A stretch of 63,369 bases of DNA from Acidobacteriaceae bacterium (GTDB lineage Bacteria; Acidobacteriota; Terriglobia; Bryobacterales; Bryobacteraceae), in contig JADCJL010000152.1 of the NCBI GenBank assembly GCA_020247055.1, positions 1-63,369 of the forward strand, in the 5' to 3' direction. Positions 14,225 through 55,342 of the stretch are shown piece after piece. The number at the start of each line of letters is the position of its first letter. Position 1 is the first letter of the stretch. Below the pieces are notes generated by a model. That model did not search any database. It was not told the DNA's origin and saw only the letters and a program-made list of their open reading frames with translations. A program made the position numbers and the translations under genes.

Positions 14225-14312
14225 GCGCACAACGGACGCGATTCGGCCCGGCGGGAGGGGTGAGTTCCTCGCCCGCTGGTGCCGGGCCGGCGCCGCCTGG
14301 GCGCTTCTGACC
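14225..14312 (+). repeat. GCGCACA 3' repeat element, copy A
   Basis: 88-bp element starting 5 bp after the stop of receptor 2. It begins GCGCACAACGGACGCG and ends GCGCTTCTGACC. It contains nested complementary arms: GGCCCGGC with GCCGGGCC, and GGGTGAG with CTCGCCC (one G-U wobble, TTC loop). Aligned without gaps to copy B at 54355-54442 it is close to 87% identical, with equal length. It could act as an RNA terminator or stability element, or be a non-autonomous REP-like repeat. Confidence 0.75.
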
Positions 14313-14320
14313 GGTCGGAT

Positions 14321-15223
14321 TTAATTCGAGGGCTGCGAACCGTAGATCCTGAGCAGCCGCTCGAACTCGGCGCGGGCCGCGGCAGCCTTCGTGGGCGCGC
14401 CGTTGGCCTGGTAGAGCCGGAAGAGCTGATAACGGATGGTGGCGTCGACGGGGGCGAGGCGGGCGGCGGTTTCGAGAGCCGTGATCGCCTCCTCCCGCTG
14501 CCCCAGCGCCGTGTAGAGGCGGGCGGCCAGCTTGGGGGCGGAGGCGTCGGCCGGGTCGATGGCCATGGCGCGGATGGCGTGGGGCAGGGCTTCGGCCGGC
14601 TGGCCGGCAGCGAGGCGGAGCCGGGCGAGACCCAGTTGCGAGTTCAGCAGCGTTGGGGTGGCCGTGTAGGCGGCGGCCGCCTCCCCGGTCTCGCCAAGGC
14701 GTTCGAGGCAGAAGCCGAGATAGGAGCGGGAGCGGGCGTGGCCGGGGTGGCGTTCGAGTGCCCGGCGGAACCAGCCGGCGGCGGTCTCGGCGTCGTTGCC
14801 GTCGGTGTCGTAGTGGCGGCCGAGGTAGTAGTAGGGGCCGAAGTCGAGGGGGTCGCGCCGGATGGCCTCGGTCATCTGATCGCGGAAGAGCAGATGCTGC
14901 CCGGCGAGGTAGTAGGCGACGCCGAGCAGTTTGGGCTGGTTGGCCGGGCGCAGCAGGCGGATGGCCGCCGGGGCCTCGCGGCGGAGGATGGCCAGCAGGC
15001 CGAGCCAGACCGGGCGGTCCGCCGCCGGCAGCGCCGCGGCGAGGGAGGCGGCGCGCGGCAGGTCGCCGGCCAGGAGCGCCTGGCGCACCGCTGCGGTGGC
15101 GGGCGCCGGGGGCGGCAGCAGAGCCTCCAGGTCTTGCCGCTGCGCGCCGAGGGGCGTGTGACATACTACGAGCAGGATGAGGGCAATCGCGGTTCTGGCA
15201 GGCTGGATTACGGCGGGCAACAT
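14321..15223 (-). CDS. exported TPR-repeat protein
   Basis: 300-residue protein with a hydrophobic signal segment (IALILLVVCHTPLGAQ) and several tetratricopeptide units in the second half, including DFGPYYYLGRHYD, ARSRSYLGFCLERLGE and REEAITALETAARLAP. TPR proteins act as protein-binding scaffolds; no enzyme domain is present. The function is unknown. The ATG at 15223 is the only start codon upstream of the signal segment, so the gene overlaps its divergent neighbour head to head by 47 bp. Its 3' end faces the repeat element after receptor 2. Confidence 0.8.
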   Translation of the reverse strand: MLPAVIQPARTAIALILLVVCHTPLGAQRQDLEALLPPPAPATAAVRQALLAGDLPRAASLAAALPAADRPVWLGLLAILRREAPAAIRLLRPANQPKLLGVAYYLAGQHLLFRDQMTEAIRRDPLDFGPYYYLGRHYDTDGNDAETAAGWFRRALERHPGHARSRSYLGFCLERLGETGEAAAAYTATPTLLNSQLGLARLRLAAGQPAEALPHAIRAMAIDPADASAPKLAARLYTALGQREEAITALETAARLAPVDATIRYQLFRLYQANGAPTKAAAARAEFERLLRIYGSQPSN

Positions 15224-15878
15224 CCTATGCTACGCGCAGTTTCTGCCCGATCTGCAAGCCCGTACGCCGGCTGAGTTTGACGCCTATCTTGAGGTGCTCG
15301 AGGCGCCGGGCGTTGCGCGGAGCGAGGCCTTCCTGCGCGAGTTTCCGGACTCCGCGCTGCGGCTGCCCGTCTGGGAGCTGCTGGCCAGGGCCCGGCGGGC
15401 CGAAGGCAACGCCGCGGCGGCGATCCGGGCGGTGCGGGCGGGGTTGGCCGTGGCGCCGGAGTACGCGCCGCTGCTGGTGGAGCTGGCGGACCTGCTGGCC
15501 AACGGGGCGACGGGCTGGGAGGAGGCCGAAGCGCCGGCGCGGAGTGCACTGGCCGTGCTCGACCGGGTGAAGGCGCCGCAGCGGGTGGGGCCCGCCGAGT
15601 GGACCGCGGCGGTTCAAACGCTGACGGCGCGGGCGTATGCGGCCTGGGGGCTGGTGCTGTTCAAACGGAACGACGTCGCCGGGGCTATCCGGCAGTTGGA
15701 GGCGGCCCTGCGGCAGCAGCCCGCGGGGGATGCCACGCTGCACTACCGGCTGGGCCGTCTGTACGCCGTCGCGGGGCGCACCCGGGAGGCGCGCGCCGAG
15801 TTGGCCGAGGCGGCGCGGAGCGGCGTGGACGAACTGCGTGCCCTGGCCAGACAGGCGCTGGCCGGGCTGCCGGAGTAG
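15177..15878 (+). CDS. exported TPR-repeat protein
   Basis: 233-residue Ala/Arg-rich protein with an N-terminal hydrophobic segment ending near ILCYAQ and TPR units, the clearest being ATLHYRLGRLYAVAGRTREA at the C-terminal side. It probably scaffolds protein contacts in the periplasm; no catalytic motif is visible. Its start region is antisense to the start region of the divergent TPR gene, so the promoters of both must lie inside each other's coding sequence. It converges on the LptFG gene with 7 bp between stops. Confidence 0.78.
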   Translation: MRAIAVLAGWITAGNILCYAQFLPDLQARTPAEFDAYLEVLEAPGVARSEAFLREFPDSALRLPVWELLARARRAEGNAAAAIRAVRAGLAVAPEYAPLLVELADLLANGATGWEEAEAPARSALAVLDRVKAPQRVGPAEWTAAVQTLTARAYAAWGLVLFKRNDVAGAIRQLEAALRQQPAGDATLHYRLGRLYAVAGRTREARAELAEAARSGVDELRALARQALAGLPE

Positions 15879-15885
15879 CGCGGCG

Positions 15886-18210
15886 TCAGGAGCGCATCCG
15901 GGTCATCATATAGAGCCCGGCGAGCAGGAAGATGGCGTCGGGGCTCCAGGCTGCCACGGGCGCCGGCAGCTGGTTTAGATTGCCGACCTGCACGAACAGT
16001 TCATCGCAGGCGCGGTAGGCGATGGCGATGCCGAAGCTGGCGCCCACGCTGGCCATGGCGCCGCGCCGGCCGCCCAGGAAACTGAACGGCACGGCGATGA
16101 CGGCCAGAATAAAGGCAAACAGCGGAACGGAGAACTTGCGGTGGAACTGCACCTGCAGCCGGATGGTGTCAAAGCCGCTCTGCTTCAGGTCCTGGATGTA
16201 GCTGTCGAGCTGCCGGAAGTTCATCTGCTTGTACTGCTTCTCTTCGATCAGGAAGTAGTCGGGCTGCTCGTCGAGCTCGGAAAACGTGCGGACCTGATAC
16301 TCCTCGTAACCCTTGATGCGGATATCCTCCATGTCGCGCACCCAGCCGTTTTGAAAGACCCAATTGCCGACATTCGGCTGCCAGTGGGCGCGTTCGGCGG
16401 CGATGTGGCGCACGAGGCGGAAGGTCCCCGGATCGAGTTCGTAAACATGAACCCCGACCATGACCTTTTCGGCCGGGTCGAAGTACTTGTAGTAGTAAAT
16501 CCGGGAGTTATGGCCGAAGATCCACTTCCGGTCGGGCCGCAGGTAGGTCTGCGGCGCCTTGCCTTTGATTTCGGCGCGGATGCCGTCCTGAATCAGATTG
16601 GCGTCGGGCACAACGTAGTGGTCAAAGGCGAACAGGGCGCCGCTGAGCGCCATGCCGGCCAGCAGGACCGGGGCGGAAAGCCGGTAGAGACTGACGCCGG
16701 AGGCCTTAAACGCCGTCACCTCGTTCTGATTGGCCATGACGCTGAAGGTGATCAGGACGGCGACGAGCGCGGCAACCGGCGAGTAGTCGTAGATAAACTT
16801 GGGGCCGAGAAACAGGTGATAGCGGAAGACCTTCGCCATGGGGATCTGATGGCGGATGATGTCGCTGAGCAGCTCAAAGAAGGTGAACACCTGGGTCAGG
16901 ACGACGAAGCTGATGAGACAGAGAAAGAAGTAGAAAAGAAACTCGCTCAGCACGTAGGTGTCGATGAGTTGGGGCAGCAGGCGGATGGTGACGCGGGGGG
17001 CGCGCCGGGCCAGGCGCTCGCGCTTGGAACGGTAGCGCGCCGCCCAACCGCTGAACGTTTCAAGGAACCACGCGCGGATGGCGCCAATCAGGTCGCGGTC
17101 GCCGGGGATTTCCAGGCGGACGAGCAGGACAAGGCCGACCAGGGCAAACAGGATATTCGGGGTCCAGGCGGCCACGGCCGGGCTCAGCGTTCCCTGCTTG
17201 GCGAGGCCGAGCAGGCTCACCTGCGCCATGAAGTAGAGAAAGGCGAGGAAGACGGTGAGCACGAAGGCGGCCGACTTGCCGGCTTTGCGGGAGGAGACGC
17301 CCAGCGGGATGCCCACCAGCGCGAGCAGGATGCAGGCCGGGGGCAGGGAGAGGCGCCGCTGGAGTTCAATGTCGGCCTCGCGGGAGAGTTTGGCTTCGGC
17401 GCGCAGGAGGCCGGTCTCCATGTCGGAGTAGGCGCGGGCCTGTTTTTCGGCCGGTTTCTGGGCTTCGAGCGCCTGGTCCATGAGGGGGAAGGCGGTGTTG
17501 AAGTACTGGCCGCCCTCTTTGCCCACCTCGTGGTTGCTGCCCTGCTGGAGCCGGAGACGAATGCGGTTGTTGGCCGAGTCGGGGACGGCGACGGCGGCGG
17601 TGGCGATGGTGATGCGGGGAGCGTCGGCGGCGGCTTCCTGCGTGCTGCGCTTCCGCTGCCCGGGCGGGGTCATGTCGGCGATGAAGACGTTGCGCCAGCG
17701 CGTCGCCGGGCCGGAGATGACGTCGCCGATGTAGATGGTTTTGTTGGGGAACTGTTCGGCGAAGACGCGGGGTTGGATCTCGGCCGTCATCTGGTCGGCG
17801 ACGATCTGGTTGAGGATGCGGACGGTTTCGCGGATCGAGTAGGGGGTGAGGTAGAGCGAGCAGGCGGCGGTGAGGAGGAAGCCAAGGGAGGCAAAGACCA
17901 GCACCGGGGCCAGCACGCGCCGTCCCGGGACGCCGGCGGCGCGCAGGGCGATGATTTCGCCGTCCGAGGACATCCGGCTGAGGCCGATCAGGACCCCGAC
18001 GAGGACCCCGACGGGGAGGGTCATCATCAGCGTGAACGGCATGACGAGCAGGAACAGATAGCCGACCGTGGAGGCGGAGGCGGCGCCGCGCACCAGCTGT
18101 TCAAACAGCAGACTGATGCGCTGCAGGAAGAGGACGAAGCTGAACAGCAGGGTGCCGAGGCCGGCTCCCGCCAGGACCTCCCGGAAAATGGCGCGGCTCA
18201 GCAGGCTCAT
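15886..18210 (-). CDS. LptF-LptG fused lipopolysaccharide export permease
   Basis: 774 residues containing two consecutive LptF/LptG-family permease modules. The first (about 1-370) starts with SRAIFREVLAGAGLG and has the RMSSDGEIIALRAAGV segment. The second (about 410-774) starts near LIDTYVLSEFLFYFFLC and has NEVTAFKASGVSLYR. Each has six transmembrane segments around a periplasmic beta-jellyroll region. In the Lpt system LptF and LptG are separate subunits that pair with the LptB2 ATPase to push LPS to the outer membrane; here one chain appears to supply both. It follows the PmbA-like gene by 9 bp on the same strand, so the three genes may be one transcript. Confidence 0.9.
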   Translation of the reverse strand: MSLLSRAIFREVLAGAGLGTLLFSFVLFLQRISLLFEQLVRGAASASTVGYLFLLVMPFTLMMTLPVGVLVGVLIGLSRMSSDGEIIALRAAGVPGRRVLAPVLVFASLGFLLTAACSLYLTPYSIRETVRILNQIVADQMTAEIQPRVFAEQFPNKTIYIGDVISGPATRWRNVFIADMTPPGQRKRSTQEAAADAPRITIATAAVAVPDSANNRIRLRLQQGSNHEVGKEGGQYFNTAFPLMDQALEAQKPAEKQARAYSDMETGLLRAEAKLSREADIELQRRLSLPPACILLALVGIPLGVSSRKAGKSAAFVLTVFLAFLYFMAQVSLLGLAKQGTLSPAVAAWTPNILFALVGLVLLVRLEIPGDRDLIGAIRAWFLETFSGWAARYRSKRERLARRAPRVTIRLLPQLIDTYVLSEFLFYFFLCLISFVVLTQVFTFFELLSDIIRHQIPMAKVFRYHLFLGPKFIYDYSPVAALVAVLITFSVMANQNEVTAFKASGVSLYRLSAPVLLAGMALSGALFAFDHYVVPDANLIQDGIRAEIKGKAPQTYLRPDRKWIFGHNSRIYYYKYFDPAEKVMVGVHVYELDPGTFRLVRHIAAERAHWQPNVGNWVFQNGWVRDMEDIRIKGYEEYQVRTFSELDEQPDYFLIEEKQYKQMNFRQLDSYIQDLKQSGFDTIRLQVQFHRKFSVPLFAFILAVIAVPFSFLGGRRGAMASVGASFGIAIAYRACDELFVQVGNLNQLPAPVAAWSPDAIFLLAGLYMMTRMRS

Positions 18211-18219
18211 GGCGACCGG

Positions 18220-19977
18220 CTAGTCTTCGCCCTCGAGCGGCGGCGGCGGCACCAGCGGAGCGCTCGGACGTTCCTCCTGCGGACGGTCGAGGTCGAGTTC
18301 GTCAAACAGGAGCGAGGGCGTGACCACGCTGACGCCGGTAACGAACCCGCCGGCTCCCATGAGGGCCAGCGGATAGCTGTTGAGCAGCAGATTCAGGCTG
18401 TGGGTCTCGGTGCTGGCGGCGACGATGTCGCGGAGAGCCCGCACCGTCAGCCCGCGGAAGCGCATGCCGCGAACGGGCTCTTCACGGCCATCGGGGTAGA
18501 CGCGATAGACGGCCAGGGGGAGCGAGACGGGCCGGCTGCTGCCGCCGCCGGCCTGCAGGGAGGAGGCCAGACGACGTAGTTCGCCGACACTGGCCGAACT
18601 GGGGAAGTCGATCTTCCGCACAATCAGCCCATACGGCTTGTTGCGCTGGCGGACGGCATCGAGGAGTTTGGTCTTGAGCGCGGCCAGCGGCACGGTCTCT
18701 CTGGCCGTGACGAGCAGGTTGCTGGGCAGGGCGGTGCTGGCGCCGAAGCCGCCGGGGAGGCGGGCGCGGCCATTGGAGCCTTCAAAACCGCGGACGGGCT
18801 GCCGGGTGAGCAGGAAGTTCTTCAAGACCCCGTTACGGACGATGGGAAGCGGTTGGGGCACGACCCCCTCCATGTCAATGGGGTAGTAGCCGAACAGCGG
18901 ACGGCCCTGGCTGTCGCGGGCGAACGGATCGTCGGTGATATCGAGAAACTCCGGCATGACGCGGGCGCCGAGGCGGCCTTCGAAGTCCGAAGGCGGGAGG
19001 TTGACGGGGCGGCCGGGCTCGGAGATCGGCGAGCGAACGGGCGACAGGTTGCCGCCCAGCATCTGGGCGAGCAGTTGTGCGGCGGCTTCGCCTTCAAACA
19101 GAACCGGGCCGCTGTAGGCTTCGCCGAGCGGGGCGGCGCAGAGCGTGGTGAGGCGGGCGGCCATGGCGTGGATGGCTTGGCCGATTTCGGCGTCCCCGGG
19201 AAGCCCGGCGGCCGAAAAGGCATGGAAGGTGAGGTAGTCCCGCAGCGGGCTGCCATCGTCGGCGAGCGCCTCGGCGCGCACCCGCAAGGTGGTGATGTTT
19301 TCCGGGAAACGGTAGAAGGTGCCCTCAGTGTCGCCAAAGTAGGAGGAGGAGAAGCCCTCTTCGTACTCGACGCGGGAGTCGAGGATCTTCGGATAGCCCC
19401 TGAGCAGGGCCGAAAGAGTCCGGACGCGTTCATTCGCCCGCTTTTCGTCCATCCGGCCCGCGGGAACCGGCAGCACTTTGACCACCGGAGCCTGCTTGGC
19501 GAAGTCGTTCAACTTCTCCGCCTGGTTGATGTTTTTGATGGCGGCGCGTTTGAGCGACAGGGTTTCCACCGCGGCTTTGTAGCTGCGGTCGGTGGCGAGC
19601 CAGAGGTCCAGGCGGATCTGGTCCACGCCGGCTTCGAGGGGCCAGTTTTCGTTGTCAAAACGGGCGCCGCGGATCATGCCGGTGTAAACGCAATTGGTGT
19701 TGTCGAACTCGTAGCTGCCGACGCGGACCTGCACCCGGGGGACCCGGTAGTTGGAGCGGCGGGACAGCAGCAGGCCCCCGAGGGTGGCCGAACAGGTGAA
19801 GTTGGCGCCCTGGTCGAGGCCGTACTGGATGTAGTACGGGGTTTCCCCGGCGAGGCTGAGCCGCAGGGAACGGCTGAGTTCGGCCCGCATGGCTTCAAGG
19901 ATGGGATCGTTGAGCTTCTCCTGCGCCGGAGCGGCGGCGGCCGCGCCCAGCAGGAGGCTGAAGGTACGGCGCTTCAC
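18220..19977 (-). CDS. exported TldE/PmbA-like protein lacking the metal motif
   Basis: 585-residue TldD/PmbA-family protein with a Tat-like signal (MKRRTFSLLLGAAAAAPAQ) and the family's C-terminal half (LFGYYPIDMEGV, VLKNFLLTRQPV, VYRVYPDGREEPV). The position that carries HExxxH in TldD reads AAAQLLAQMLGG here, so it is probably the non-catalytic partner, as TldE/PmbA is for TldD. It starts with GTG, overlapping the TldD-like stop by 4 bp, so the two are coupled and likely form a heteromer. The E. coli TldD/E pair is cytoplasmic; the signal peptides here point to a periplasmic version. Confidence 0.85.
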   Translation of the reverse strand: MKRRTFSLLLGAAAAAPAQEKLNDPILEAMRAELSRSLRLSLAGETPYYIQYGLDQGANFTCSATLGGLLLSRRSNYRVPRVQVRVGSYEFDNTNCVYTGMIRGARFDNENWPLEAGVDQIRLDLWLATDRSYKAAVETLSLKRAAIKNINQAEKLNDFAKQAPVVKVLPVPAGRMDEKRANERVRTLSALLRGYPKILDSRVEYEEGFSSSYFGDTEGTFYRFPENITTLRVRAEALADDGSPLRDYLTFHAFSAAGLPGDAEIGQAIHAMAARLTTLCAAPLGEAYSGPVLFEGEAAAQLLAQMLGGNLSPVRSPISEPGRPVNLPPSDFEGRLGARVMPEFLDITDDPFARDSQGRPLFGYYPIDMEGVVPQPLPIVRNGVLKNFLLTRQPVRGFEGSNGRARLPGGFGASTALPSNLLVTARETVPLAALKTKLLDAVRQRNKPYGLIVRKIDFPSSASVGELRRLASSLQAGGGSSRPVSLPLAVYRVYPDGREEPVRGMRFRGLTVRALRDIVAASTETHSLNLLLNSYPLALMGAGGFVTGVSVVTPSLLFDELDLDRPQEERPSAPLVPPPPLEGED

Positions 19978-21662
19978 CGGTCGCCCCCGTCGGACGGCAA
20001 GGGGCGTCCGAGCAGCGGCGGACGCTCCTGCGAACGGCTCTTGCGCTGCACTTCGATTTCACTCACCAGCAGCGCGGGCGAGATGGCCGAGACCGGGACG
20101 CTGCCGCTCTCGGCCCCGCAGTAGCCATTGAAAACCTGCGGCTGGTTTCCGGTGGCGAGGATCTTGGCAAAGCTCGCCAGCGGCGTGCCGACGATGTCGG
20201 CGCCGCGGACGAGTTCGTCGGGCCGCCCATCGGGGTAGACCCGGTAGACCACCAGGGGAATGACGGTAAAAGCCTGCAGGCCGGCGCGTCCCGTCGTGGT
20301 GAAGCCGCCCGTGACGCTCTCAAAATAGAGGCCGTAGGGTTTCTGCTGTTTCCGGATCTCGGCGATCAGCAGTTCGCGCAGTTGGGCGGCGGGGACGCTG
20401 TTCTGGGAGGTGACAATGAGGTTGCTCTGCCGGGAGACGATCTCCGCGCCGGCCTGCCGGCGGCCGTGGCCGTTGGACTGGGCAAACCCGGCGACGGGGG
20501 AACGCGAGAGCAGAAAGGTCTTGAGAATGCCGTTCTCGACGATCGGCACGCGGCGGGCGACCACGCCTTCGTCATCAAAGTCATACCAGCCGTAGAGGTC
20601 GGTTTCGGCCAGGCGCCGGACGGTGGGGTCGAAGGTGACCGACAGAAAAGGAGGGAGAACCGGGGCGTTGATGCTCTTGGTGAAGGTCTGCCCTTCGGTG
20701 TCGTCCTTTTGGCGGTGCCCTTCGATGCGGTGGCCGAAGATCTCGTGGAAGAAGACGCCGGCGGCCCGTCCGGAGAGGATGGCGGGACCGACGAAGGGAT
20801 CCACTTCGGGGGCGCGCAGGAGGCCGCGGAGGTCCTTGGCGACCCGGTCGATGGCAGCTTCGACGGCTTTGTCGGAAGGGAGGCGGTTGGGGCTGTCCGC
20901 TTCGAGGGTCTCCGAGGTGGCCAGATCCATGCCGTCGGCGGCCTTCGAGCGGGCCGAGATGAGAATCCGGGCGAAGGTGCGGCCATGCTGGAGGCGGGTG
21001 CCTTCCGTGTTGACGAAGGTTTTGATCTCCTGCTGGGCGAGGACGGCGACCGAGGAGTTCAGGATTTCGGGATACTCTTCAAACCGCTTGGACCAGTGGC
21101 GGGCGCGGGAGGCCCATTTGTCGGTGTCGAACTGGAGTTCGCTGACCGGTTTGACGGAGATGACAGCAGGTGCAGGGGAGAAGTCCCCCGACTGGTCGGT
21201 CGCGGCGACTTTCACTTCCTTATTGGTACGGATGTTCAGGAGGCGCTGCGAGGCGGCGCGGTAGACGGCATCGGTATCCATCCACAGGCGGCGTTTGAGG
21301 GCATTGGGGTTATCGTCGAGCGAGAGGAGGGAGCCGTTGGTGAACGACGGGGCGTTGCCGCCGACGCGATGGTAGTTGTCCAACTGGGGGGAGCCGATGC
21401 GGAGGGTGACGTCGAGGCTGCGGGTTTTGGTCGTGTCTTTCGAGGCGAGCATGCCGCCGGTGGCCGCCAATAGGTGCGTCTCCTGCTGGGTAACGGCGTA
21501 GGCCAGGAAGTAGGGGACCGGGTCGGCCTTGGATTTGAGGGCGGCGAAGTTACGGTCCATTTCGGCGGCCAGGATCGTCACGAGCGGCGGGGAAGGCGGG
21601 GCCTGGGCGGACAGGCAGGCGGGAAGGAGCGCGAGGGGGACAATCAGGAACGGGTACCGCAC
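19974..21662 (-). CDS. exported TldD-like metalloprotease
   Basis: About 562 residues if translated from the GTG at 21662. That start puts a signal peptide (RYPFLIVPLALLPACLSAQ) at the N-terminus and avoids the 92-bp overlap with the LuxR gene that the longest frame would cause. An in-frame TTG at 21683 is an alternative. The zinc motif is HEIFGH with His306, Glu307 and His311, followed by the conserved RIEGH. The C-terminus has the YCGAESGSVPVS segment typical of TldD. It should cleave unfolded or modified peptides with the PmbA-like partner encoded directly downstream. A Cys within LPACLS could make it a lipoprotein. Confidence 0.85.
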   Translation of the reverse strand: MRYPFLIVPLALLPACLSAQAPPSPPLVTILAAEMDRNFAALKSKADPVPYFLAYAVTQQETHLLAATGGMLASKDTTKTRSLDVTLRIGSPQLDNYHRVGGNAPSFTNGSLLSLDDNPNALKRRLWMDTDAVYRAASQRLLNIRTNKEVKVAATDQSGDFSPAPAVISVKPVSELQFDTDKWASRARHWSKRFEEYPEILNSSVAVLAQQEIKTFVNTEGTRLQHGRTFARILISARSKAADGMDLATSETLEADSPNRLPSDKAVEAAIDRVAKDLRGLLRAPEVDPFVGPAILSGRAAGVFFHEIFGHRIEGHRQKDDTEGQTFTKSINAPVLPPFLSVTFDPTVRRLAETDLYGWYDFDDEGVVARRVPIVENGILKTFLLSRSPVAGFAQSNGHGRRQAGAEIVSRQSNLIVTSQNSVPAAQLRELLIAEIRKQQKPYGLYFESVTGGFTTTGRAGLQAFTVIPLVVYRVYPDGRPDELVRGADIVGTPLASFAKILATGNQPQVFNGYCGAESGSVPVSAISPALLVSEIEVQRKSRSQERPPLLGRPLPSDGGDR

Positions 21663-21723
21663 CCCTAGCAGGATAGCATGCAAGGGGTGCGGGGCCCGCG
21701 ATTGGCGGTGGGGAGCGGAGCGG

Positions 21724-22383
21724 CTAGGAGGCTTTGGCAAGCTGGTCGAGGCCACCGCGCTGGCGGATGACAGAGAGGGCGAGGCCGTAGCGGCCGCGGA
21801 CGCCGGTCTTCTCAAAAATGTGCTTGAGATGAATCTTGACCGTCCCGGGGCGGATGCCGAGTTCGCGGGCGATATCCTTGTTCTTCATCCCCTGCTCGAC
21901 GAGTTCGAGCACCTGCTGTTCGCGGGGCGTCAGCTCGCTGCGGGAGTTTCGTTCGTGGCGGTTCGACTCCTGGAAAATGGAATCGGCCATCCAGCTGCTG
22001 CCATCGGCAACGGCGTGGAGACAGGCGAGAACGGTTTCCGGGTCGGAGGTCTTCCTCAGAATGCCGCGGGCGCCCGATTTCAAGAAGCGCAGGGCTTCGG
22101 CTTCGGTGATCGAGACGCCCCAGATGATCACTTGCGTTTTGGGAGGCAGGACCACCTTGGCGAGCGCCAGCCAGTCCAGAACCGCCTGAATCCCGAGGGA
22201 TTTATCGATCATGACGAGATGGGGAGCCTGCTGGCGGACAATCTCGCTGACGCCGGCCAGGGTCTCGGTACGTCCAATGTATTCGAGGTCCGACGAGGAC
22301 GCAAGAATCGCGCGGAGGCCTTCTGCGGTTAGCGGCTGCGTCTCGCATAAAAGCACGGCCTTCTTATCTGGGTTGTATTCCAT
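21724..22383 (-). CDS. NarL/LuxR-type response regulator
   Basis: 219 residues from the ATG at 22383. It has an N-terminal receiver domain, with putative phospho-acceptor Asp in LVMIDKSL and conserved Lys in ILRKTS, and a C-terminal LuxR helix-turn-helix (ELTPREQQVLELVEQGMKNKDIA and KIHLKHIFEK region). The acidic pair near the N-terminus is reduced to CET, so phosphorylation is uncertain. A longer frame upstream (to 22488) shows no homology. It is divergent from the CpaE-operon with about 150 bp between starts. No partner histidine kinase is in the window. Confidence 0.88.
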   Translation of the reverse strand: MEYNPDKKAVLLCETQPLTAEGLRAILASSSDLEYIGRTETLAGVSEIVRQQAPHLVMIDKSLGIQAVLDWLALAKVVLPPKTQVIIWGVSITEAEALRFLKSGARGILRKTSDPETVLACLHAVADGSSWMADSIFQESNRHERNSRSELTPREQQVLELVEQGMKNKDIARELGIRPGTVKIHLKHIFEKTGVRGRYGLALSVIRQRGGLDQLAKAS

Positions 22384-22431
22384 ATGCTTGTACCCCGAGG
22401 GGGGATCACTCCTATTTACAGGGCATATCGG

Positions 22432-23747: not shown

Positions 23748-23762
23748 CTGGTATTCTGAAGC

Positions 23763-47521: not shown

Positions 47522-47549
47522 GTAGACGGCAGGAGAGACCTGCCGGGTG

Positions 47550-47586: not shown

Positions 47587-47594
47587 TGTGTGGG

Positions 47595-48299
47595 TTACCG
47601 GGCGGCTTCCGCCGTGGGTGTGCCTTCTTCGACAATGCGACCGTCGAACAGGCGGATGTTCCGGCCGGCGTGGCGGGCGTAGCGGGGGTCGTGGGTGACC
47701 ATGCAGATGGTGGCGCCATCGCGATGCAGGTCGCTGAGCAGGCTCATGACCTGGTCGCCATTTTGCGAGTCGAGATTTCCCGTCGGCTCGTCGGCCAGCA
47801 GTACTGTCGGCCGGCCGGCGAGCGCGCGCGCTACGGCAATGCGCTGCTGTTGTCCGCCGGATAGCTGGGCAGGGTAGTGGTTGATGCGGTGGAGCATCCC
47901 GACCCGCTCGAGCGCTTCCTGCGTTTGCTTCTTGCGCTCGGCGCCGGACAGGCCGCGGTAGGTCAGCGGCAGTTCGACGTTTTCATAGACCGTGAGATCG
48001 CCAATCAGGTTAAAGGCCTGGAAGATGAAGCCGATTTCGCGATTGCGGATCCGTGCCCGTTCGGCGGCACCCAGCGACTGCACGGGGGTGCCGTTGAGCA
48101 CGTAGGTGCCACCGGAAGGTGAATCGAGCAGGCCCAGAATGGCGAGCAGCGTCGATTTGCCGCAGCCGGACGGGCCGGAGATGGAGACGTACTCGCCCTG
48201 GTTGATTTCGAGATGAATGCCTGCGAGGGCATGGGTTTCGACGTCATCGGTGACGAAGACCTTGGTCACCGCATCGAGCCGCAGCAGCGCTGTCGACAT
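47595..48299 (-). CDS. MacB/LolD-type ABC transporter ATPase
   Basis: 234 residues with Walker A GPSGCGKST, signature LSGGQQQR, Walker B VLLADEPTG and H-loop MVTHDP. This type drives a MacB-like permease in lipoprotein export or efflux. It follows the HlyD-type adaptor by 15 bp, yet no permease gene is adjacent; it must be encoded elsewhere. Confidence 0.93.
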   Translation of the reverse strand: MSTALLRLDAVTKVFVTDDVETHALAGIHLEINQGEYVSISGPSGCGKSTLLAILGLLDSPSGGTYVLNGTPVQSLGAAERARIRNREIGFIFQAFNLIGDLTVYENVELPLTYRGLSGAERKKQTQEALERVGMLHRINHYPAQLSGGQQQRIAVARALAGRPTVLLADEPTGNLDSQNGDQVMSLLSDLHRDGATICMVTHDPRYARHAGRNIRLFDGRIVEEGTPTAEAAR

Positions 48300-48314
48300 G
48301 GTTTCTCGTCTCCC

Positions 48315-49568
48315 TTACTGCAGCCGCAGCCGTTGGTGCGCATCATACGACGACATATCCGACAGAATGACACGATCACCGGCCTGTAATCCATCGACGA
48401 TTTCAATCGAATTCACCGAAGCCCGGCCGAGTCTGACCGGTACGCGGAGCGCTTCCTTGCCATCCGGGTTGATGCGGAACAGGGTAATCGTCGAGAAGGG
48501 TTGCCCGTAGACGGGCCGTCCCATCTGCAGCACATCGCTCAGGCGTTCGAGTTCGACCGTCCCGTCGACGGAGAGGTCCGGGCGGGCGCCGGCCGGCAGC
48601 GCCGAGGTGAGTTTGACGTCGACCGTCACCGTGCCGTTCACGGCCGCCGGATCGATCCGGGAGACCACCCCCTCGAGGAGGCCGTTCCGGGTATCGATCG
48701 TCGCCGGCAGGCCCAGCGCGATCTCCTTCACCTGCGTCTCGGCGATCTTCAGTTCGGCCTTGAGCCGGGTGGGTTGGGCGATTTTGGCCAGGACCGACCC
48801 CGCGAGAATCCGCTGGCCCACCTCGACCGGCATCTGCTGGAGCACCCCGGCGGCGCCGGCCCGGACTTTGAGTTCCGCCACCTGCCGGCGCTTCAGCGCC
48901 AGGGCGGCCTTGAGCTTTTCCACCTGCACCTGCTGGGCAGCCAACTGAGCCTCGATGGACTCCCGGGAGATGTCCAGGCGCTGGCGTTCAATCCGGTAGC
49001 GGCCGGCCAGTTCGTCCGCCTTGGCCTTTGCCAGTTTCGATTCCAGGTCCGACTTCAGTCCCATTTTGGTGAGCGTCTCGTCGCGCTCTGCCGTCAGCCG
49101 GGCCTGGCTCCACTCCGACTGCACGCGCGCCGTGGCGGCCTCCTGATCGAGGCGGGCCGATTCGAGTTTCACCCGCAGATCCTTGCCGTTGGCTTCAGCC
49201 TGCTTCAGTTGCCATTCGGCATCCACCGCGGCCAGTTCCAACTCCGGATTGGTCAATTCGAGCAAAATCGATCCGGCCTGGACCGCCGCCCCCGCCCGCA
49301 GATGGATCCGATGGACCTGCCCATCGGTAAGCGCCGGCACAAACAAAACCTCTTCGGCTACCAGCGTGCCGAGGCCGCGCACGTTACGCACCAGGGGGCC
49401 GCGCTTGACGATGCCCGGCCACAACGTTGCCGAGTCCACCGCGAGCGCCGCCGGCTGCAGGCGGGACACCCCAAAGCTTACGGCGCCAAGGACGCCGAGG
49501 CCCAACAGCACCAGCGTCACCCGCTTGAGGTGCTTGGTTGACGAGACTCCGGAACGGGGGAGATCCAT
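48315..49568 (-). CDS. HlyD/MacA-type periplasmic adaptor
   Basis: 417 residues from the ATG at 49568. One N-terminal membrane helix (TLVLLGLGVLGAVSFGV), a lipoyl-like half-domain, a long alpha-helical hairpin (about residues 120-230, Glu/Lys/Ala-rich) and beta-barrel C-terminal domains. It links an inner-membrane ABC permease to the outer membrane. Forms an operon with the ATPase downstream. Confidence 0.9.
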   Translation of the reverse strand: MDLPRSGVSSTKHLKRVTLVLLGLGVLGAVSFGVSRLQPAALAVDSATLWPGIVKRGPLVRNVRGLGTLVAEEVLFVPALTDGQVHRIHLRAGAAVQAGSILLELTNPELELAAVDAEWQLKQAEANGKDLRVKLESARLDQEAATARVQSEWSQARLTAERDETLTKMGLKSDLESKLAKAKADELAGRYRIERQRLDISRESIEAQLAAQQVQVEKLKAALALKRRQVAELKVRAGAAGVLQQMPVEVGQRILAGSVLAKIAQPTRLKAELKIAETQVKEIALGLPATIDTRNGLLEGVVSRIDPAAVNGTVTVDVKLTSALPAGARPDLSVDGTVELERLSDVLQMGRPVYGQPFSTITLFRINPDGKEALRVPVRLGRASVNSIEIVDGLQAGDRVILSDMSSYDAHQRLRLQ

Positions 49569-49672
49569 GGGGTTTTCCGGACCCGACGGATGCAATCCGG
49601 GTGCCAACCCGTAAAGCTCGTTACGTCAATCCTTTGCGAAATTCTGAATTTCCGAGCAGTGTTCGCTTTCGG

Positions 49673-49714
49673 GACGAGGCGGCGCGAAACAGGACAGTTC
49701 CGCGCCGCCTCGTC
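49673..49714 (-). terminator. terminator hairpin of the sugar dehydrogenase gene
   Basis: Perfect 14-bp stem GACGAGGCGGCGCG with CGCGCCGCCTCGTC and a 14-base loop, beginning 9 bp past the stop on the minus strand. No T-run is obvious. Confidence 0.6.
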
Positions 49715-49723
49715 GAGCCAGAG

Positions 49724-50944
49724 CTAGTTCGGGGTAACGTGAATCAGCGCGCCCGGGTTGGCGTCTTCAATCATCCAGAGCGAACCATCCGGAGCCTGCG
49801 CGACGGCGCGGATCCGTTTGCCCACGTCCCAGCGCTCGGCCGGCTTGGCGCCGCCCTTGCCGTCGAAGACAATGCGGTTCAGCGAATGGCTGCCCAGGCC
49901 GCTGATGAAGCCGTTGCCGTCCCATTGGGGGAACATCTTCTTGCCGGTGTAGAACATCAGGTTGCCCGGGGCGATCACCGGAACCCAGTACAACGCGGGC
50001 TTGGTGAACTCGGGCCGGGTGTCATGGCTGGGGATGGGCACCTCGTTGTAGTTCATCCCGTAGGAGACTTCGGGCCAGCCATAGTTTTTGCCCTTTTCGA
50101 CGAGGTTCAACTCGTCGCCGCCGCGCGGACCGTGTTCGACCTCCCAGAGTTCGCCGGTGGGCGAGAAGGCGAGGCCGTAGGGAGCGCGAAAGCCGCTGGC
50201 CCAGGTCTCCGAGGGGGTCATGTTGGGCCCGGGGAAGGTGTAGGTGCTGACGGTCGGGGCCGATTTGGCCAGCTCGGTGTCGCGGGGCGGGTCGATGAGC
50301 GAGATGGTGCTCGAACCCGTTTTGCCGTAGTTGGGGTTGCCCGGCGCGGGCTTGCCGTCGAGCGTGAGGCGGAGGATCTTGCCCACGGGTTGGTTGGGGT
50401 CCTGCGCGGGGGTCATGCGCTGGCGGTCGCCGACGGCCATGTAGATGTATTGACCGTCGGGTGAGAAGGCGATCTGGCCGCTGGCCTGGCCGCCTTTGCC
50501 GCGGGGCATCTGCCGCCAGATAACCTGCAGGTCGAGCAGGCGGGGCACACGCCCGGCGTTCAGTTTCGCTTTGGCGAGCACTTGGCTGCCGCCGTATTCG
50601 CCGGGTTCGATGTAGGTGAGGTAGATCGTCTCGTCGGAAGCGTAGTGGGGGGAGAGAAAGACGCCGAGCATGCCGTTCTGCCCCTGCCAGTAGACGGGCG
50701 GGGTTCCGCTGAGGGGCGCGATCTTCTCCCCTTTGGCCGAAACGAGCCAGATGGGTCCGATCTTTTCGGTGACCAGCATGCGGCCGTCGGGCAGGAAGGC
50801 AATGCGCCAGGGCAGGGCAAAGCTGGATACCGTCGTCATTTTGAACGGCAGGGTGGGTTCGGGTTTTTGGGTGCCGACATTCACCTGGGTCCAGGCGGTG
50901 GAACATCCCAGAGCGAACAGCAGGGCCGCGTTGGCCAGTCTCAT
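49724..50944 (-). CDS. PQQ-type soluble sugar (glucose/sorbosone) dehydrogenase
   Basis: 406 residues from the ATG at 50944, chosen because AAGGAG lies 8 bp before it and the signal peptide MRLANAALLFALGCSTAWTQ follows. A six-bladed beta-propeller typical of the GSDH/YliI family, with PWRIAFLPDGRMLVTE, GQIAFSPDGQYIYMAVGDR and WASGFRAPYGLAF. It oxidises aldose sugars in the periplasm. Divergent from TonB receptor 3, whose start region has a similar AGGAGTAA sequence. Confidence 0.88.
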   Translation of the reverse strand: MRLANAALLFALGCSTAWTQVNVGTQKPEPTLPFKMTTVSSFALPWRIAFLPDGRMLVTEKIGPIWLVSAKGEKIAPLSGTPPVYWQGQNGMLGVFLSPHYASDETIYLTYIEPGEYGGSQVLAKAKLNAGRVPRLLDLQVIWRQMPRGKGGQASGQIAFSPDGQYIYMAVGDRQRMTPAQDPNQPVGKILRLTLDGKPAPGNPNYGKTGSSTISLIDPPRDTELAKSAPTVSTYTFPGPNMTPSETWASGFRAPYGLAFSPTGELWEVEHGPRGGDELNLVEKGKNYGWPEVSYGMNYNEVPIPSHDTRPEFTKPALYWVPVIAPGNLMFYTGKKMFPQWDGNGFISGLGSHSLNRIVFDGKGGAKPAERWDVGKRIRAVAQAPDGSLWMIEDANPGALIHVTPN

Positions 50945-51073
50945 CGTGATTACTCCTTGCTTCACAAAATAGCAGTCCGCGGGGGCGTGCCGCAGCCCAG
51001 GCCAACCGCGCCGTCCCGGGCGCCCGGGCCATACCCCTTTACTCCGGCGCGGCGGAATGATAGGAGTAACTTT

Positions 51074-54000
51074 ATGAAATCGTTACTCCGGTCTCTGCTC
51101 TTGTTTACTGCGCTGCTTTCCGGCATTTATGGCCAGGTAGAACGCGCTTCGGTGGTGGGTACCATCACGGATAAGTCGGGCGCCGTCATGGCCGGCGTGG
51201 AGGTAACCGTCACCAATGTGGCGACCAATACCTCGCAGCGCCTGGTTACCGATGAAGCCGGTGCATACTCGGCCGTGAATCTGATTCCCGGCGTCTACAC
51301 CGTGCAGGCGGCGAAATCCGGTTTCCGGAACATGGTCTTTAAAGATTACACGCTGCAGGTTAGTCAGGCCGCCCGTCTCGACGTGGTCATGGAAGTGGGC
51401 GAGGTGAACCAGTCGGTGGAGGTCACCGGCGCGGCGCCCCTGCTCCAGACCGAAAACGCCAGCGTCGGTCAGGTAATTGCCAAAGAGGCGGTGCAATCCC
51501 TGCCGCTCAACGGACGGAACTTTGTGCAACTCGCCATCCTGGCTCCCGGGGTGACGGGACTCGATTACGCCCAGTCCAACACCATCAATTCAGGGCGCCG
51601 GCCGGATGAACTCCGCCCGGGCGGCACGGCGCTGGCGGCCAACGGCGCGCGGAGCACCTCCAATCAGGTGCTGATTGACGGCATCGATAACACGGAGATG
51701 ATTTCGCAAACCTTCATCGTCCGCCCCGCGGTCGAAGGCATTCAAGAGTTTAAGGTGCTCACGAACAACGCCGGCGCCGAGTACGGCCGTTCAGCCGGTG
51801 CGGTCGTGGTGATCACCTCCAAGTCCGGCGGCAACGACTTCCACGGGTCGCTGTTTCACTTTCTGCGGAACGAAGCGTTTGATGCCAGGAACTTCTTTGC
51901 CCGCACCGATGCTCCCAAGCCGCCCTTCAAGCTGAATCAGTACGGCGTAGCGCTGGGCGGGCCGATAAAGCGCAACAAGACCTTCTTTTTCGCCGATTAC
52001 GAAGGCTACCGGGAGGTCTTCGGCGACACCCAGCTCGTCACCGTTCCGACCGCCGCCATGAAAACAGGCGACTTCCGGGGCGTCGCTCCCAACGGCATCT
52101 TCGATCCTCTCACCACCACCGCGAACCCCGCCGGCGGCGCCGCCATCCGCCAGCGCTTCCCCAATGACACCATTCCCGCCAGCCGCTTTGATCCCATCGG
52201 CGCCGGCATGGCGCAGCTCTGGCCGAATCCGCAGCGCTCCGGACTCATCAACAACTTCGTCGCCAATCCGGTGAAAAAGTCCAGCCTGCACCGGGCCGAC
52301 GGTCGCCTCGATCACGTCTTCGATTCGAACAACACCGCGTTCTTCCGTTACTCCATCGACAAGAGCCTGATTACCATGCCCGATACCTTCGACACCAACA
52401 TCGGCGGCAACGAAGCGAGCTTCGCGGGCAACCTCGACGCGACCGGTCGCAATGTGGTGGGCGCCTACACGCGCGTCATGTCCCCGTCCACGGTTGGAGA
52501 CTTCCGCTACGGTTACACGCAGTACAACTCCGCTCTGATTCCCACGCAGCTCACCAACCCGATCTGGTCCCGGATTCCCGGCCGCGATTCGGGCGATCCC
52601 CGGCAGCCCTCGGCCCCCATTGTCGGTACCGCCGGCTACGCCGGCTTGGGTAACGCGCGCTCTACCCCGCTGATCCGCGATCAGAAGATGCACGAACTGA
52701 TTGCCAACATCTCCACGCTCAAAGGCAAGCACAACATCAAGTACGGTATCGACCTCCGTCTCCGTACAACCGGCGAGACCGCTTCGCCTCCCGGAGAGTC
52801 CGCCTTCGGTCGCTGGAACTTTGATCCCGCCTACTCGCGCAATCCCGCCGCCCCGGCCGGCACCGGCGACACCGTGGCCACCATGATCCTCGGCTATCCG
52901 CTGGCGCTCCGCCGCGATGTCTTCCTGCCCGGAACCGCGACCCTGAATACCAACGAGTGGAATCTCTACATTCGCGACGAGTGGCGCGTCACCTCGAAGC
53001 TGACGCTCAACATCGGCCTGCACTACGAAGTCAATACTCCGTTCGTTGAAAGGAAAAACCAGTGGGTCAACTTCAATCCGGCCTCCGGTGCGCAACTGGT
53101 CGCCGGGGTCAACGGCGTCTCTAACACCGGCAACATCAACACCGACTGGAAGGCCTGGGGACCGCGCCTGAGCTTCGCCTACCAGGTCGACAAAAAGACG
53201 GTCATCCGCGGTGGCTACGGCCTCTTCTATGAGCCGCAGGGGAACTTCAATACCTCCATCCGGCAGTTCCGCCAGCCCCCCTTCGGCTTTGTGATCAACA
53301 TTCCGTTCAGCGGCAACGATGTACCCACGCGGCGCGCCGCTGACGGCTTCCCGATCACCACCCAGGTCCCCGACCTGACCCGCGGCCCCGCCTTCTATGC
53401 CCTGCGCGGCGTAACCCCCAACTACCGGAACGGACAACTCCAGCAGTTCAATCTCAGCGCCCAGCGGGAGATCGCCAAGGACACCGTCGTTACCCTTGGC
53501 TTTGTCGGTTCGGCCGGTGCGCTGTTGAGCTGGCAGCGGAACCTGAATCAGCCCGACCCCGGCCCCGGCGGCATCGACGCCCGCCGGCCCTTCGCCCGGC
53601 AACTGCCCGGCGTCACCAACATCCAGTGGCTCGAGTCCTCGGCCAACTCGGCCTACACCTCCATGCAGCTGAATGTCGAAAAGCGCTACGCCAAGGGCCT
53701 CTACCTACTGAGTAACTGGACCTGGGCGCATGGCCTCGATAACGTCGGCGGCGACGGCGGCGCCAACGGCCCGGTGCCGCAGGACCCCGGCAACCGGCGG
53801 GCCGACTGGTCGAGTTCCAACTCCGATATCCGCCATCGCATCAACTTCGCCGCCTCCTACCTGCTCCCGTTCGGCGCCAACCTGCAAGGCCCGGCCAAGT
53901 TCGTTCTCCACGGCTGGGAGTTGGGCGGCTTGACCGTGATTCAAAGCGGCCTGCCCTTCACGGTTACCGTTCCCGGTTCGCCCTCGAACACCGGTTCGGG

Positions 54001-54349
54001 ATCGCGCGCCAACGCTGTGGCGGGGGTCAGCCCTGCGGCCACGAATCGCAGCATCACCAGCTGGTTCAACCCCGCGGCGTTTTCGGTGCCCCCCGCCTTC
54101 ACCTGGGGTAATCTGGGCCGGAACACCCTGCGCGGGCCGGGCATTTGGAACCTCGATCTTTCGGCTGCCAAGAAGTTCAACTTCTCGGAGACCCGGCGCC
54201 TCGAGTTCCGTGCCGAATTCTTCAATTCGCTCAACCATCCGCAGTTCGGGCTGCCCGGCTCAACCATCGGCGTGGGCGGCGTGGGCACAATCACCGCAAC
54301 GCAGCGCGCCAACCGGCAGATCCAGTTCGCTCTCCGCTATGCTTTCTAA
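51074..54349 (+). CDS. Oar-like TonB-dependent receptor 3
   Basis: 1091 residues from the ATG at 51074 (TAGGAG Shine-Dalgarno). Signal ends at SGIYGQ; then the carboxypeptidase-regulatory-like domain (SVVGTITDKSGAVMAGV), plug with LPLNGRNFVQLA and LIDGIDNTE, and a barrel ending QFALRYAF. Sense-strand third positions look richer in C than in the cytoplasmic genes nearby. The 88-bp repeat (copy B) begins 5 bp after its stop. Ligand unknown; the adjacent sugar dehydrogenase hints at sugars. Confidence 0.93.
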   Translation: MKSLLRSLLLFTALLSGIYGQVERASVVGTITDKSGAVMAGVEVTVTNVATNTSQRLVTDEAGAYSAVNLIPGVYTVQAAKSGFRNMVFKDYTLQVSQAARLDVVMEVGEVNQSVEVTGAAPLLQTENASVGQVIAKEAVQSLPLNGRNFVQLAILAPGVTGLDYAQSNTINSGRRPDELRPGGTALAANGARSTSNQVLIDGIDNTEMISQTFIVRPAVEGIQEFKVLTNNAGAEYGRSAGAVVVITSKSGGNDFHGSLFHFLRNEAFDARNFFARTDAPKPPFKLNQYGVALGGPIKRNKTFFFADYEGYREVFGDTQLVTVPTAAMKTGDFRGVAPNGIFDPLTTTANPAGGAAIRQRFPNDTIPASRFDPIGAGMAQLWPNPQRSGLINNFVANPVKKSSLHRADGRLDHVFDSNNTAFFRYSIDKSLITMPDTFDTNIGGNEASFAGNLDATGRNVVGAYTRVMSPSTVGDFRYGYTQYNSALIPTQLTNPIWSRIPGRDSGDPRQPSAPIVGTAGYAGLGNARSTPLIRDQKMHELIANISTLKGKHNIKYGIDLRLRTTGETASPPGESAFGRWNFDPAYSRNPAAPAGTGDTVATMILGYPLALRRDVFLPGTATLNTNEWNLYIRDEWRVTSKLTLNIGLHYEVNTPFVERKNQWVNFNPASGAQLVAGVNGVSNTGNINTDWKAWGPRLSFAYQVDKKTVIRGGYGLFYEPQGNFNTSIRQFRQPPFGFVINIPFSGNDVPTRRAADGFPITTQVPDLTRGPAFYALRGVTPNYRNGQLQQFNLSAQREIAKDTVVTLGFVGSAGALLSWQRNLNQPDPGPGGIDARRPFARQLPGVTNIQWLESSANSAYTSMQLNVEKRYAKGLYLLSNWTWAHGLDNVGGDGGANGPVPQDPGNRRADWSSSNSDIRHRINFAASYLLPFGANLQGPAKFVLHGWELGGLTVIQSGLPFTVTVPGSPSNTGSGSRANAVAGVSPAATNRSITSWFNPAAFSVPPAFTWGNLGRNTLRGPGIWNLDLSAAKKFNFSETRRLEFRAEFFNSLNHPQFGLPGSTIGVGGVGTITATQRANRQIQFALRYAF

Positions 54350-54354
54350 GAAAC

Positions 54355-54442
54355 GCGCACAACGGACTCGCTTCGGCCCGGCAGGAGGGGCGAGTTTCTC
54401 GCCCGTTGGTGCCGTGCCTGTGCGGCCTGTGCGCTTCTGACC
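54355..54442 (+). repeat. GCGCACA 3' repeat element, copy B
   Basis: 88 bp, same length as copy A, starting 5 bp after the receptor 3 stop. Nested arms: outer GCGCACA with TGTGCGC, then CGGCA with TGCCG, then a perfect GGGCGAG-TTT-CTCGCCC hairpin. Where copy A has a G-U pair in the inner stem, this copy has G-C. The decayed MLE-family gene begins directly at its right end. Confidence 0.8.
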
Positions 54443-55210
54443 ATGCAATCGCCGACCTGCAGGCCTTCACCCTCCGCGAGCCCGGCTCCGGACGGGGTTA
54501 TTCGCTACTGAAAGCCTCCACGGACCAGTGGCTGACGGGTTGGGGCGAAAGCCCTCCCGCCTCGTTGACGCTGGCCCGTTCCGTGGCCGTCGGCCAGGAG
54601 ACCTTCCGCTATGACGTGCTCACCCGGTGGCTCTCCGGCGACCCCATAGCCGCCGCGGTGAACATGGCGCTCCTCGATCTTTACGGCCAAGAGGCCAAGG
54701 CCCCCATCTTTCAGCTGTTCGACTGGCCTACCCGCTTCAAAGCAACCTTCGTGAATTCTTCTCTCCCCATGCCGGGATCGGCTGTGGATGCACTCTGCTG
54801 ACCCAATCGGCGCAGAACGATCCCTACCGCTCCGCGGGTCCGCCGGGCGCGGCCGACCAGATGGATGATTTCGTCAAGATCGGTAGCCACCAGGGGACGG
54901 CTGAGGCAAAGGCACGCTCGAAGGCAAAAGTGCTGCCACCATCTACTGCGTGGAGGGCTTTAAAGCTTCTCTGGTTGGCGCCGACCCGATACCGGTAGAG
55001 CACCTCTGGCCGTCGATGCCCCACCATGATCAACCATTGCGGTCGCATTCCCGGGGGGAAAGGTGGCCCCTATCGGCAAGTATCCCCTGCCCACCAGGCC
55101 GGGCCTCGGCTTCGATCTGGACGAAAAGCAGGTGGCCCGGTACCGGTTTGAAGGCACCCGTCCCATGGCCCGGGTCTTCCACCCGGACGGCGCCGTGGCG
55201 GCCTGGTAAC
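54443..55210 (+). pseudogene. decayed mandelate racemase/muconate-lactonizing (enolase superfamily) gene
   Basis: The first part, about 54446-54801, encodes the typical N-terminal capping domain: IADLQAFTLREPG, TGWGESPP and AVNMALLDLYGQEAKAPIFQL. It lacks a start codon, since the sequence begins right after the repeat, and stops at 54801. The central barrel, with the catalytic lysines and metal ligands, is missing or unreadable. In a shifted frame near 55057-55206 the family C-terminus reappears (PGLGFDLDEKQVARYRF and ending GAVAAW). Two frames and large internal loss make it non-functional. Confidence 0.75.
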
Positions 55211-55234
55211 CCGCCGCCGGAAGTGACCCCGCTC

Positions 55235-55276
55235 AAGCAGCAGCGCCTCCCGCCGAAACGGGAGGCGCTGCTGCTT
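55235..55276. terminator. 18-bp perfect hairpin
   Basis: AAGCAGCAGCGCCTCCCG pairs perfectly with its reverse complement around a CCGAAA loop. It lies between the decayed gene and the 3' end of receptor 4, so it may terminate receptor 4 on the minus strand or both directions. No T-tract. Confidence 0.55.
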
Positions 55277-55293
55277 GGGGTTGGGCGGTTGCC

Positions 55294-55342
55294 GGTTAGA
55301 AGCGCACAGGTCGCGCCGAGCCTACGCGGGTCCGTTGTGCGC
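55294..55342 (-). repeat. GCGCACA 3' repeat element, copy C (short form)
   Basis: In the sense of receptor 4 it starts 5 bp after the stop: GCGCACAACGGAC, then a shortened centre, then CCTGTGCGCTTCTAACC. Both ends match copies A and B, but about 39 bp of centre is missing. The outer GCGCACA/TGTGCGC arms are intact. Confidence 0.75.

Follow-up and report, generated by a model that had tools for sequence, protein, structure and literature searches.

We analysed a contig of 63,369 nucleotides (nt) from an Acidobacteriaceae bacterium of the family Bryobacteraceae (JADCJL010000152.1 of assembly GCA_020247055.1; the whole stretch is called the window below), in which a hairpin-forming repeat follows three genes for Oar-like TonB receptors. 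The repeat is very likely a mobile element that inserts at the tetranucleotide TTYT, and it is probably scattered through the genome as a passenger, without a role in controlling the receptors. The best explanation is a non-autonomous mobile palindromic element, of the size of a repetitive extragenic palindrome (REP) or a miniature inverted-repeat transposable element (MITE). An initial annotation of the window had proposed a functional element of the 3' untranslated region (UTR) specific to this receptor family, or else a repeat duplicated together with the gene ends. In place of this receptor-specific reading, the data favour a mobile hairpin that inserts site-specifically at TTYT and finds natural, safe targets in Phe-stop codons.

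The three copies (A, B and C; Table 1) are placed as annotated, in the orientation of the gene and with a common start, GCGCACAACGGAC, located 5 nt past the receptor stop codon. Copy A begins at 14225 behind TGA 14217-14219, copy B at 54355 behind TAA 54347-54349, and copy C at 55342 on the minus strand behind TGA 55350-55348. The estimate of about 11 substitutions between A and B also agrees with our alignment, in which 11 of 88 positions differ. The common ending CTTCTRACC is present if counted from the last C of the core, but comparison with relatives identifies its RACC as host sequence.

Empty and filled versions of the same sites were compared among 19 genomes of the genus, namely the genome of the window (G000; a draft of 6.56 Mb in 358 contigs, 97.7% complete) and 18 congeners. 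Site B is empty in G015 (CTTCTGACCATG), as well as in G001 and G009, and filled in G000 (TTTCTAAGAAAC-core-TTCTGACCATG). Site C is empty in G016 (TTTTAACCGGCAAC), filled in G000 (TTCTGAGGACC-core-TTCTAACCGGCAAC), and filled in G015 with a 31-nt core that has TTCT on its left and TTTT on its right. Site D, behind a receptor ending in ..MKVLF*, is empty in G009 (TTCTAGGCATCG) and G001 (TTCTAAGCGTCA) and holds two cores in G000 (TTTTAAGGAACCC-two cores-TTTTAAGCCTCG). Site E, aligned by eye, is empty in G015 and G016 (TTCCAGGG) and reads TTTTAGGGAAC-core-TTTTGAGGG where filled, and at site A, G015 and G016 are filled and G004, a more diverged genome, is empty. The empty sites hold a single TTYT, and the host sequence resumes directly after the right-hand TTYT without apparent loss. 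The element is found as RAGGAAC(N0-2), a hairpin core running from GCGCANA to TNTGCGC, and TTYT, located directly 3' of another TTYT. The inserted unit can be written as RAGGAAC(N)-core-TTYT or equally as TTYT-RAGGAAC(N)-core, one of the two TTYT being that of the host. At a Phe-stop, where TTY is the Phe codon, the RA on the side of the element completes the stop codon, and on this reading the GA of the receptor stop codon at site A falls within the inserted part.

Two of these sites carry other small sequences in some congeners. In G015 and G016, site D contains a different insert of 14 nt (TTCTAG-GTGGGTTG-TTCTAG; L408, about 363-373, and L403, about 6357-6367), which looks like the footprint of another TTCT-targeting insertion. 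Site A in G002 is neither clearly empty nor clearly filled: a left end of the form TTCT-GAGGAACAC-GCGC (L154, reverse strand, starting near 1961) precedes a small hairpin of another kind (z -2.3) that may be a decayed or diverged copy.

The same junctions were recovered from the flanks of copies genome-wide. In G000, 31 of 53 outer left flanks contain TTYT followed by RA or AG with its end 4-8 nt away from the core (background 0.37%). On the other side, TTYT comes immediately after the core in 21 of 49 outer flanks (background 0.48%). The linkers within arrays (n=46) are 11-13 nt long, consistent with TTYT plus a left end. Among 32 of the 40 matches from other genera, which represent nine genera, the left signature was found in 18 copies and the right TTYT in 21, and one of these genomes (G141) has a copy behind an open reading frame (ORF) of 680 codons that ends in AYVNLRYRF*. 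A comparison of the tetranucleotides on the two sides of 26 single copies gave identity at 2.88 of 4 positions, as compared to 2.88 after permutation (p 0.54), and this lack of correlation disfavours a target-site duplication. The right-end TTYT is itself a possible target and neighbouring copies are alike, so that arrays may grow by new insertion or by local duplication.

The copy number of the repeat differs strongly between closely related genomes. The exact 13-nt core GCGCACAACGGAC occurs 126 times in G000 and its reverse, used as a control, 0 times; a search that tolerated two mismatches separated them less well (378 versus 143). Exact cores number 155 in G015, 108 in G016, 55 in G006 and 23, 13 and 11 in three further genomes, with 0-1 in the remaining 12 of the 19 genomes, which gives a range of 0-155 among the congeners. 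A covariance model of the long form built from 26 sequences (R1), for which up to 150 candidates per genome were scored, recovered at least 125 copies in G000, at least 122, 106, 83, 34, 17 and 15 in six other genomes and 1-6 in seven, and had no match in five of the 19 (G001, G003, G014, G017 and G018). This patchiness within a single genus makes it most likely that the repeat is mobile. Across the family, where at most 31 candidates per genome were scored under stricter filters, R1 identified diverged copies in at least 20 of 150 genomes and at least 14 of 76 genera, the own genus included. The titles among the at least 80 loci listed in a scan of named genomes were Acidobacteria or Bryobacteraceae and included Candidatus Sulfopaludibacter sp. 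SbA3 and metagenome-assembled genomes from Lake Pavin. No match to the repeat was found in searches of plasmid and viral contigs, and Rfam gave 0 matches over the gathering cut-off in the window and in three other loci (L053, L072, L080). We did not recognise a description of this repeat in the literature searched, in which the closest were the class 3 structures covered by the available part of PMC6006769.

Copies in G000 are present as singles or as head-to-tail arrays with a period of about 43 bp for the 31-nt core or 92-93 bp for the 80-nt core, and some of the diverged copies in other genera are likewise arrayed, with a period of about 93 bp. Many of the listed core matches in G000 are located at contig ends, and arrays therefore probably break this assembly. 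As a separate observation, the 250 bp upstream of one array (L053) are 100% identical to a locus in G016 (L178), as compared to roughly 83-97% identity in the other stretches compared between the two genomes; this may reflect a very recent transfer, strong conservation or cross-contamination of the drafts.

The hairpin is real and old, and its stem has been maintained by compensatory change across ten genera. Cores of 31, 41 or 80 nt were identified, the short core lacking the inner hairpin that lies between two GGCC in the long form. When folded as single strands, copies A and B outperform their shuffles (z -2.9 and -3.6), whereas C alone does not (z +0.4). The annotation had described the nested arms as kept by wobble-compatible change. 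Its example is right for one position, but the copies of the genus show no covariation (double changes in 2 of 25 pairs; covariation term +0.17), and the support for maintained pairing comes from other genera. In an alignment of 25 copies that we selected (six of them from this genus, the other 19 drawn from nine further genera represented by ten genomes), 11 of the 20 stem pairs have changed on both sides, with 36 such cells, as compared to 5.9 pairs and 11.5 cells in shuffles, none of 500 of which scored as high. In total, 88.9% of the cells over the 20 stem pairs are paired, a value that drops to 28-48% if the partner is slid by 1-3 columns. The clearest compensatory change is from GCGCACA/TGTGCGC to GCGCAAA/TTTGCGC. 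A coding reading of the core was rejected; by eye, no frame is common to the genera.

The long form has the left end GAGGAAC (GAGGAACGCGC), and the reverse complement of this end, GTTCCTC (GCGCGTTCCTC in some copies), forms its apical loop; the match extends over up to 11 nt, as in L072:57-153 and L429:7451-7530. The longest complementary run averages 5.3 nt in 77 copies from the genus, after filters had removed two, and 5.9 nt in 32 copies from other genera, as compared to 3.8-3.9 nt for a reversed-flank control. Pairing at the level of individual copies was reached by 2 of 300 permutations in the genus and, more weakly, by 20 of 300 elsewhere. This complementarity may point to a tertiary contact in the transposition complex; to our knowledge, no such contact has been described for REPs.

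The association with receptors can be understood from the target. Most genes for outer-membrane barrel proteins end in Phe-stop (TTY-TRA) and thereby offer the element a ready target in the final codon; its left-end RA keeps a stop codon, which makes the insertion harmless. The spacing of 5-7 nt after the stop codon arises because insertion occurs at TTYT. Among 63 scorable receptors (65 were scored out of 160 candidates), the last codon is Phe followed by T in 58. The 63 include eight with a copy no more than 60 nt away, at 5 or 7 nt in seven cases and at 22 nt in one; none of the five receptors with a different ending has a copy. We also examined 825 kb of G016, selected for contig size and synteny with the window and annotated with crude gene calls. 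Receptors account for 19 of the 636 gene calls (3%) in this sample but for 14 of the 34 TTYT-R stop codons, and this large share explains their prominence among the copies. Copies were present behind 2 of the 14 stops of receptors and 1 of the 20 other stops; for intergenic TTYT sites, with those internal to arrays included, the count is 11 of 116, and for sites within genes it is 4 of 576. As far as these small counts go, insertion at receptor ends is roughly as frequent as at other TTYT sites outside coding sequence.

We also examined 52 outermost copies in the surroundings of the first 100 matches listed; at least one of the 52 (L078:4118) looks spurious. Of these, 11 follow a stop codon recognised as that of a receptor, which is a lower bound, and 41 were not recognised as following one; a few of the unrecognised neighbours, such as L040, have barrel-like C-termini. 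The alternative in the initial annotation, that the repeat was duplicated with the gene ends, is unlikely given orthologous receptor ends that lack the repeat and copies located away from receptors.

Table 1. Copies of the repeat and Oar-like receptor genes in the window.
Feature	Coordinates	Strand	Details
Copy A, long form (91 nt)	14218..14308	+	GACGAAC, 80-nt core 14225-14304, TTCT; adjoins TTCT 14214-14217
Copy B, long form	54348..54438	+	core 54355-54434; adjoins TTCT 54344-54347
Copy C, 41-nt core variant plus flanks	55298..55349	-	core 55302-55342; adjoins TTCT 55353-55350
Head-to-tail array of short units	63142..63369	-	at least 5.3 units of 43 bp; ends at contig end
Oar-like receptor ..GLKLIF*, host of site A	10782..14219	+	PF25183, 9.4e-193
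Oar-like receptor ..ALRYAF*, host of site B	50582..54349	+	PF25183, 1.2e-234; ORF start uncertain
Oar-like receptor ..ALKLYF*, host of site C	55348..58629	-	PF25183, 1.2e-229
Fourth Oar-like receptor ..GLRFVF*, without copy	58789..62244	-	TTTTAA end

The three host receptors contain a PF25183 barrel and a PF13620 domain (E values from 9e-193 to 1e-234). The tandem array of the short version at the edge of the window was absent from the initial annotation. The gene downstream of copy B (54439-55210) appears broken when compared with its ortholog in G015.

As for the mechanism, recognition of a single-stranded hairpin, of the kind used by IS200/IS605 elements and REPs, would move the element, and the GGAA at the foot of the hairpin would serve as the guide for TTCT. 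The spacer 5' of the hairpin is complementary to TTYT, with a mean best pairing of 3.58 of 4 for the left tetranucleotide, which had been picked by its fit to TTYT, and 3.23 of 4 for the right one, as compared to 2.07 for random tetranucleotides. By analogy with these systems, we give movement by an HUH-type (one-tyrosine) enzyme about an even chance. A broader proposal, in which such tag-less single-hairpin elements occur family-wide, have their own single-stranded DNA transposition system, use the Phe-stop of outer-membrane barrel genes as a safe harbour and rebuild the stop codon from their left end, is less likely than not.

Several observations weigh against insertion at TTYT by such an enzyme. 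In G000, many copies have something other than TTYT in one of their two flanks. Because TTCT is predominant on the left as well as on the right, the test for a target-site duplication draws its power from the few deviating copies only. The pairing of guide and target shows no copy-by-copy covariation (p 0.28 and 0.67), and in the 825 kb of G016 the 20-kb GC skew swings between -0.29 and +0.30 within a contig, which would hide any preference for the lagging strand. No mobilising gene was found in the sequence searched, which consists of incomplete drafts, and the enzyme may be encoded in unassembled DNA or outside the part searched. The family PF01797 (Y1_Tnp) has no match in G000, and none of 20 checked loci out of 71 in the genus has an exact core or element flanks; four of the 20 hold a match with two mismatches but no right end. 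For IS200 elements in the genus, CTA stands before the left end in all 19 distinct ends listed, and TTCT in three. A single-copy RAYT-like protein of 191 amino acids (aa) is encoded by eight of the 19 genomes with at least 65% identity (L186-L193; G015, G016, G017, G009, G001, G006, G011, G012), copy-free genomes among them, and has AVH in place of HUH in five aligned orthologs; in G015 the catalytic-type Tyr is replaced by Phe, and from its sequence the protein looks domesticated. Five Y1 queries had no match in 231 kb around copies from other genera (ORFs of at least 70 aa), and against the loci taken from G000 and from the named genomes they matched only the known RAYT-like gene of G015. 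Finally, no homology connects the longest ORFs taken from each of 23 intervals that separate closely spaced copies.

The best candidate for the mobiliser is a class 3 TnpA_Y1 (HuH protein) that has been lost from G000 or is unassembled there, an identification to which we assign somewhat less than an even chance. Solibacter usitatus belongs to the same family as the source organism. In the part of PMC6006769 available to us, class 3 genes are described from Solibacter and other bacteria as flanked by atypical structures with a CnGA foot, and Solibacter usitatus is credited with about 600 copies of such a structure and three class 3 genes. The presence of diverged R1 matches in at least 14 of the 76 genera of the family is in line with such a mobiliser, as are the many contigs of G000 that end in element arrays, where a gene could be lost. 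On the other side, the element is absent beside the PF01797 loci that were checked among the congeners, and neither CTGA, which occurs where TTCT meets RA, nor CGGA, which occurs within the core, is clearly located at a foot. The structure with about 600 copies may be kin of the GCGCANAACGGACTCGC hairpins.

The proposal of a functional 3' UTR element (a terminator, RNase block or translation brake) selected behind receptors, perhaps after arrival by mobility, is unlikely. It would account for a co-directional hairpin directly after the stop codon, for the compensatory changes in the stem and for the T-run that follows the hairpin in the array of the window, and E. coli REPs at most 15 nt from a stop codon can lower translation (PMC12306157, in its available part). 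But only eight of the 63 receptors carry a copy, orthologous sites are empty, 41 of the 52 outermost copies were not recognised behind a receptor, and congeneric species have anywhere between 0 and more than 100 copies; the claimed specificity for the receptor family is not supported. In a scan restricted to short unbulged stems and requiring five T in eight, copies A, B and C gave no match to an intrinsic terminator (GC-rich stem and U-tract). The array in the window contains four terminator-like sites, as compared to 0.6 in shuffles, and only its T-rich linkers match. The fourth receptor, which has no copy, has a strong terminator of its own at 58769-58735, with a stem of 15 pairs and a T-rich tail. 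A secondary effect of the repeat on transcript ends is possible, and does not explain the distribution.

A MITE of a DDE transposase, with GCGCACA/TGTGCGC as terminal inverted repeats and a target duplication of 4-6 bp, TTYT(RA), is improbable. The inverted ends, the small size and the TTYT on both sides agree with it, but the uncorrelated tetranucleotides of the 26 single copies do not fit a duplication, site C in G015 has TTCT on the left and TTTT on the right, and the conserved pairing extends far inside the ends. We also doubt that the mobiliser is the IS200-like TnpA or the RAYT-like protein of the genus: both are of the Y1 type, and an IS200-like copy in G006 (L094:1230-1970) is located at the Phe-stop of a receptor whose counterpart in G000 carries the hairpin (L044:4852-4942), but the CTA before the IS200 ends, the AVH motif of the RAYT-like protein, its presence in G001 and G017, both without R1 matches, and the lack of element flanks at the 20 Y1 loci checked argue against it.

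Insertion of a hairpin at TTYT implies that a mobile element can mimic a regulatory element specific to a gene family, since its target coincides with the terminal Phe codon of barrel proteins. The repeat provides clean empty and filled sites and a tag-less REP-like family with strong covariation across genera. TTYT is a concrete target for finding the mobilising enzyme and bears on how REP-like repeats spread without a linked transposase.

We compared the repeat to known systems. Like the GTAG REPs and REPINs that go with RAYT/TnpA_REP, it is a short, high-copy intergenic palindrome with a patchy distribution between species; according to the available text of PMC8266576, REPs are thought to move as single-stranded hairpins, and TnpA_REP of E. 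coli cuts at CT beside the REP. It differs in that there is no GTAG or GTGG tag, the foot being RAGGAAC(N) in the consensus of the listed copies, no cognate RAYT was found, and the repeat forms head-to-tail arrays, has an 80-nt long form and inserts at TTYT. CGTC REPs are likewise abundant palindromes without a dedicated transposase (PMC3733652, partial text). The left-end consensus here contains no CGTC, TGTC or CCTC tag, and CGTC dimers are mostly head-to-head according to the same text, in contrast to the head-to-tail arrays of this repeat. The class 3 TnpA_Y1 structures of Solibacter usitatus are also high-copy atypical hairpins and are represented in this comparison by the CnGA foot described in the accessible part of PMC6006769. 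Members of the IS200/IS605 family, such as IS608 and ISDra2, differ from the repeat, which has one hairpin rather than two, no gene and no copy-level covariation of guide and target. For the ends of these elements and for REPs, the cleavage site is chosen by a guide tetranucleotide, with cleavage at CT, in the available parts of PMC8266576 and PMC6006769. IS200/IS605 elements insert 3' of a fixed tetranucleotide without duplicating it, carry a hairpin whose 5' guide can pair with the target and have a right end equivalent to the target; the repeat resembles them in these features, for the guide in its mean complementarity to TTYT. With its gene-less hairpin, entry at a fixed tetranucleotide that is not duplicated, an end in that tetranucleotide and a putative guide at the foot, the element works like an IS200/IS605 end or a REP.

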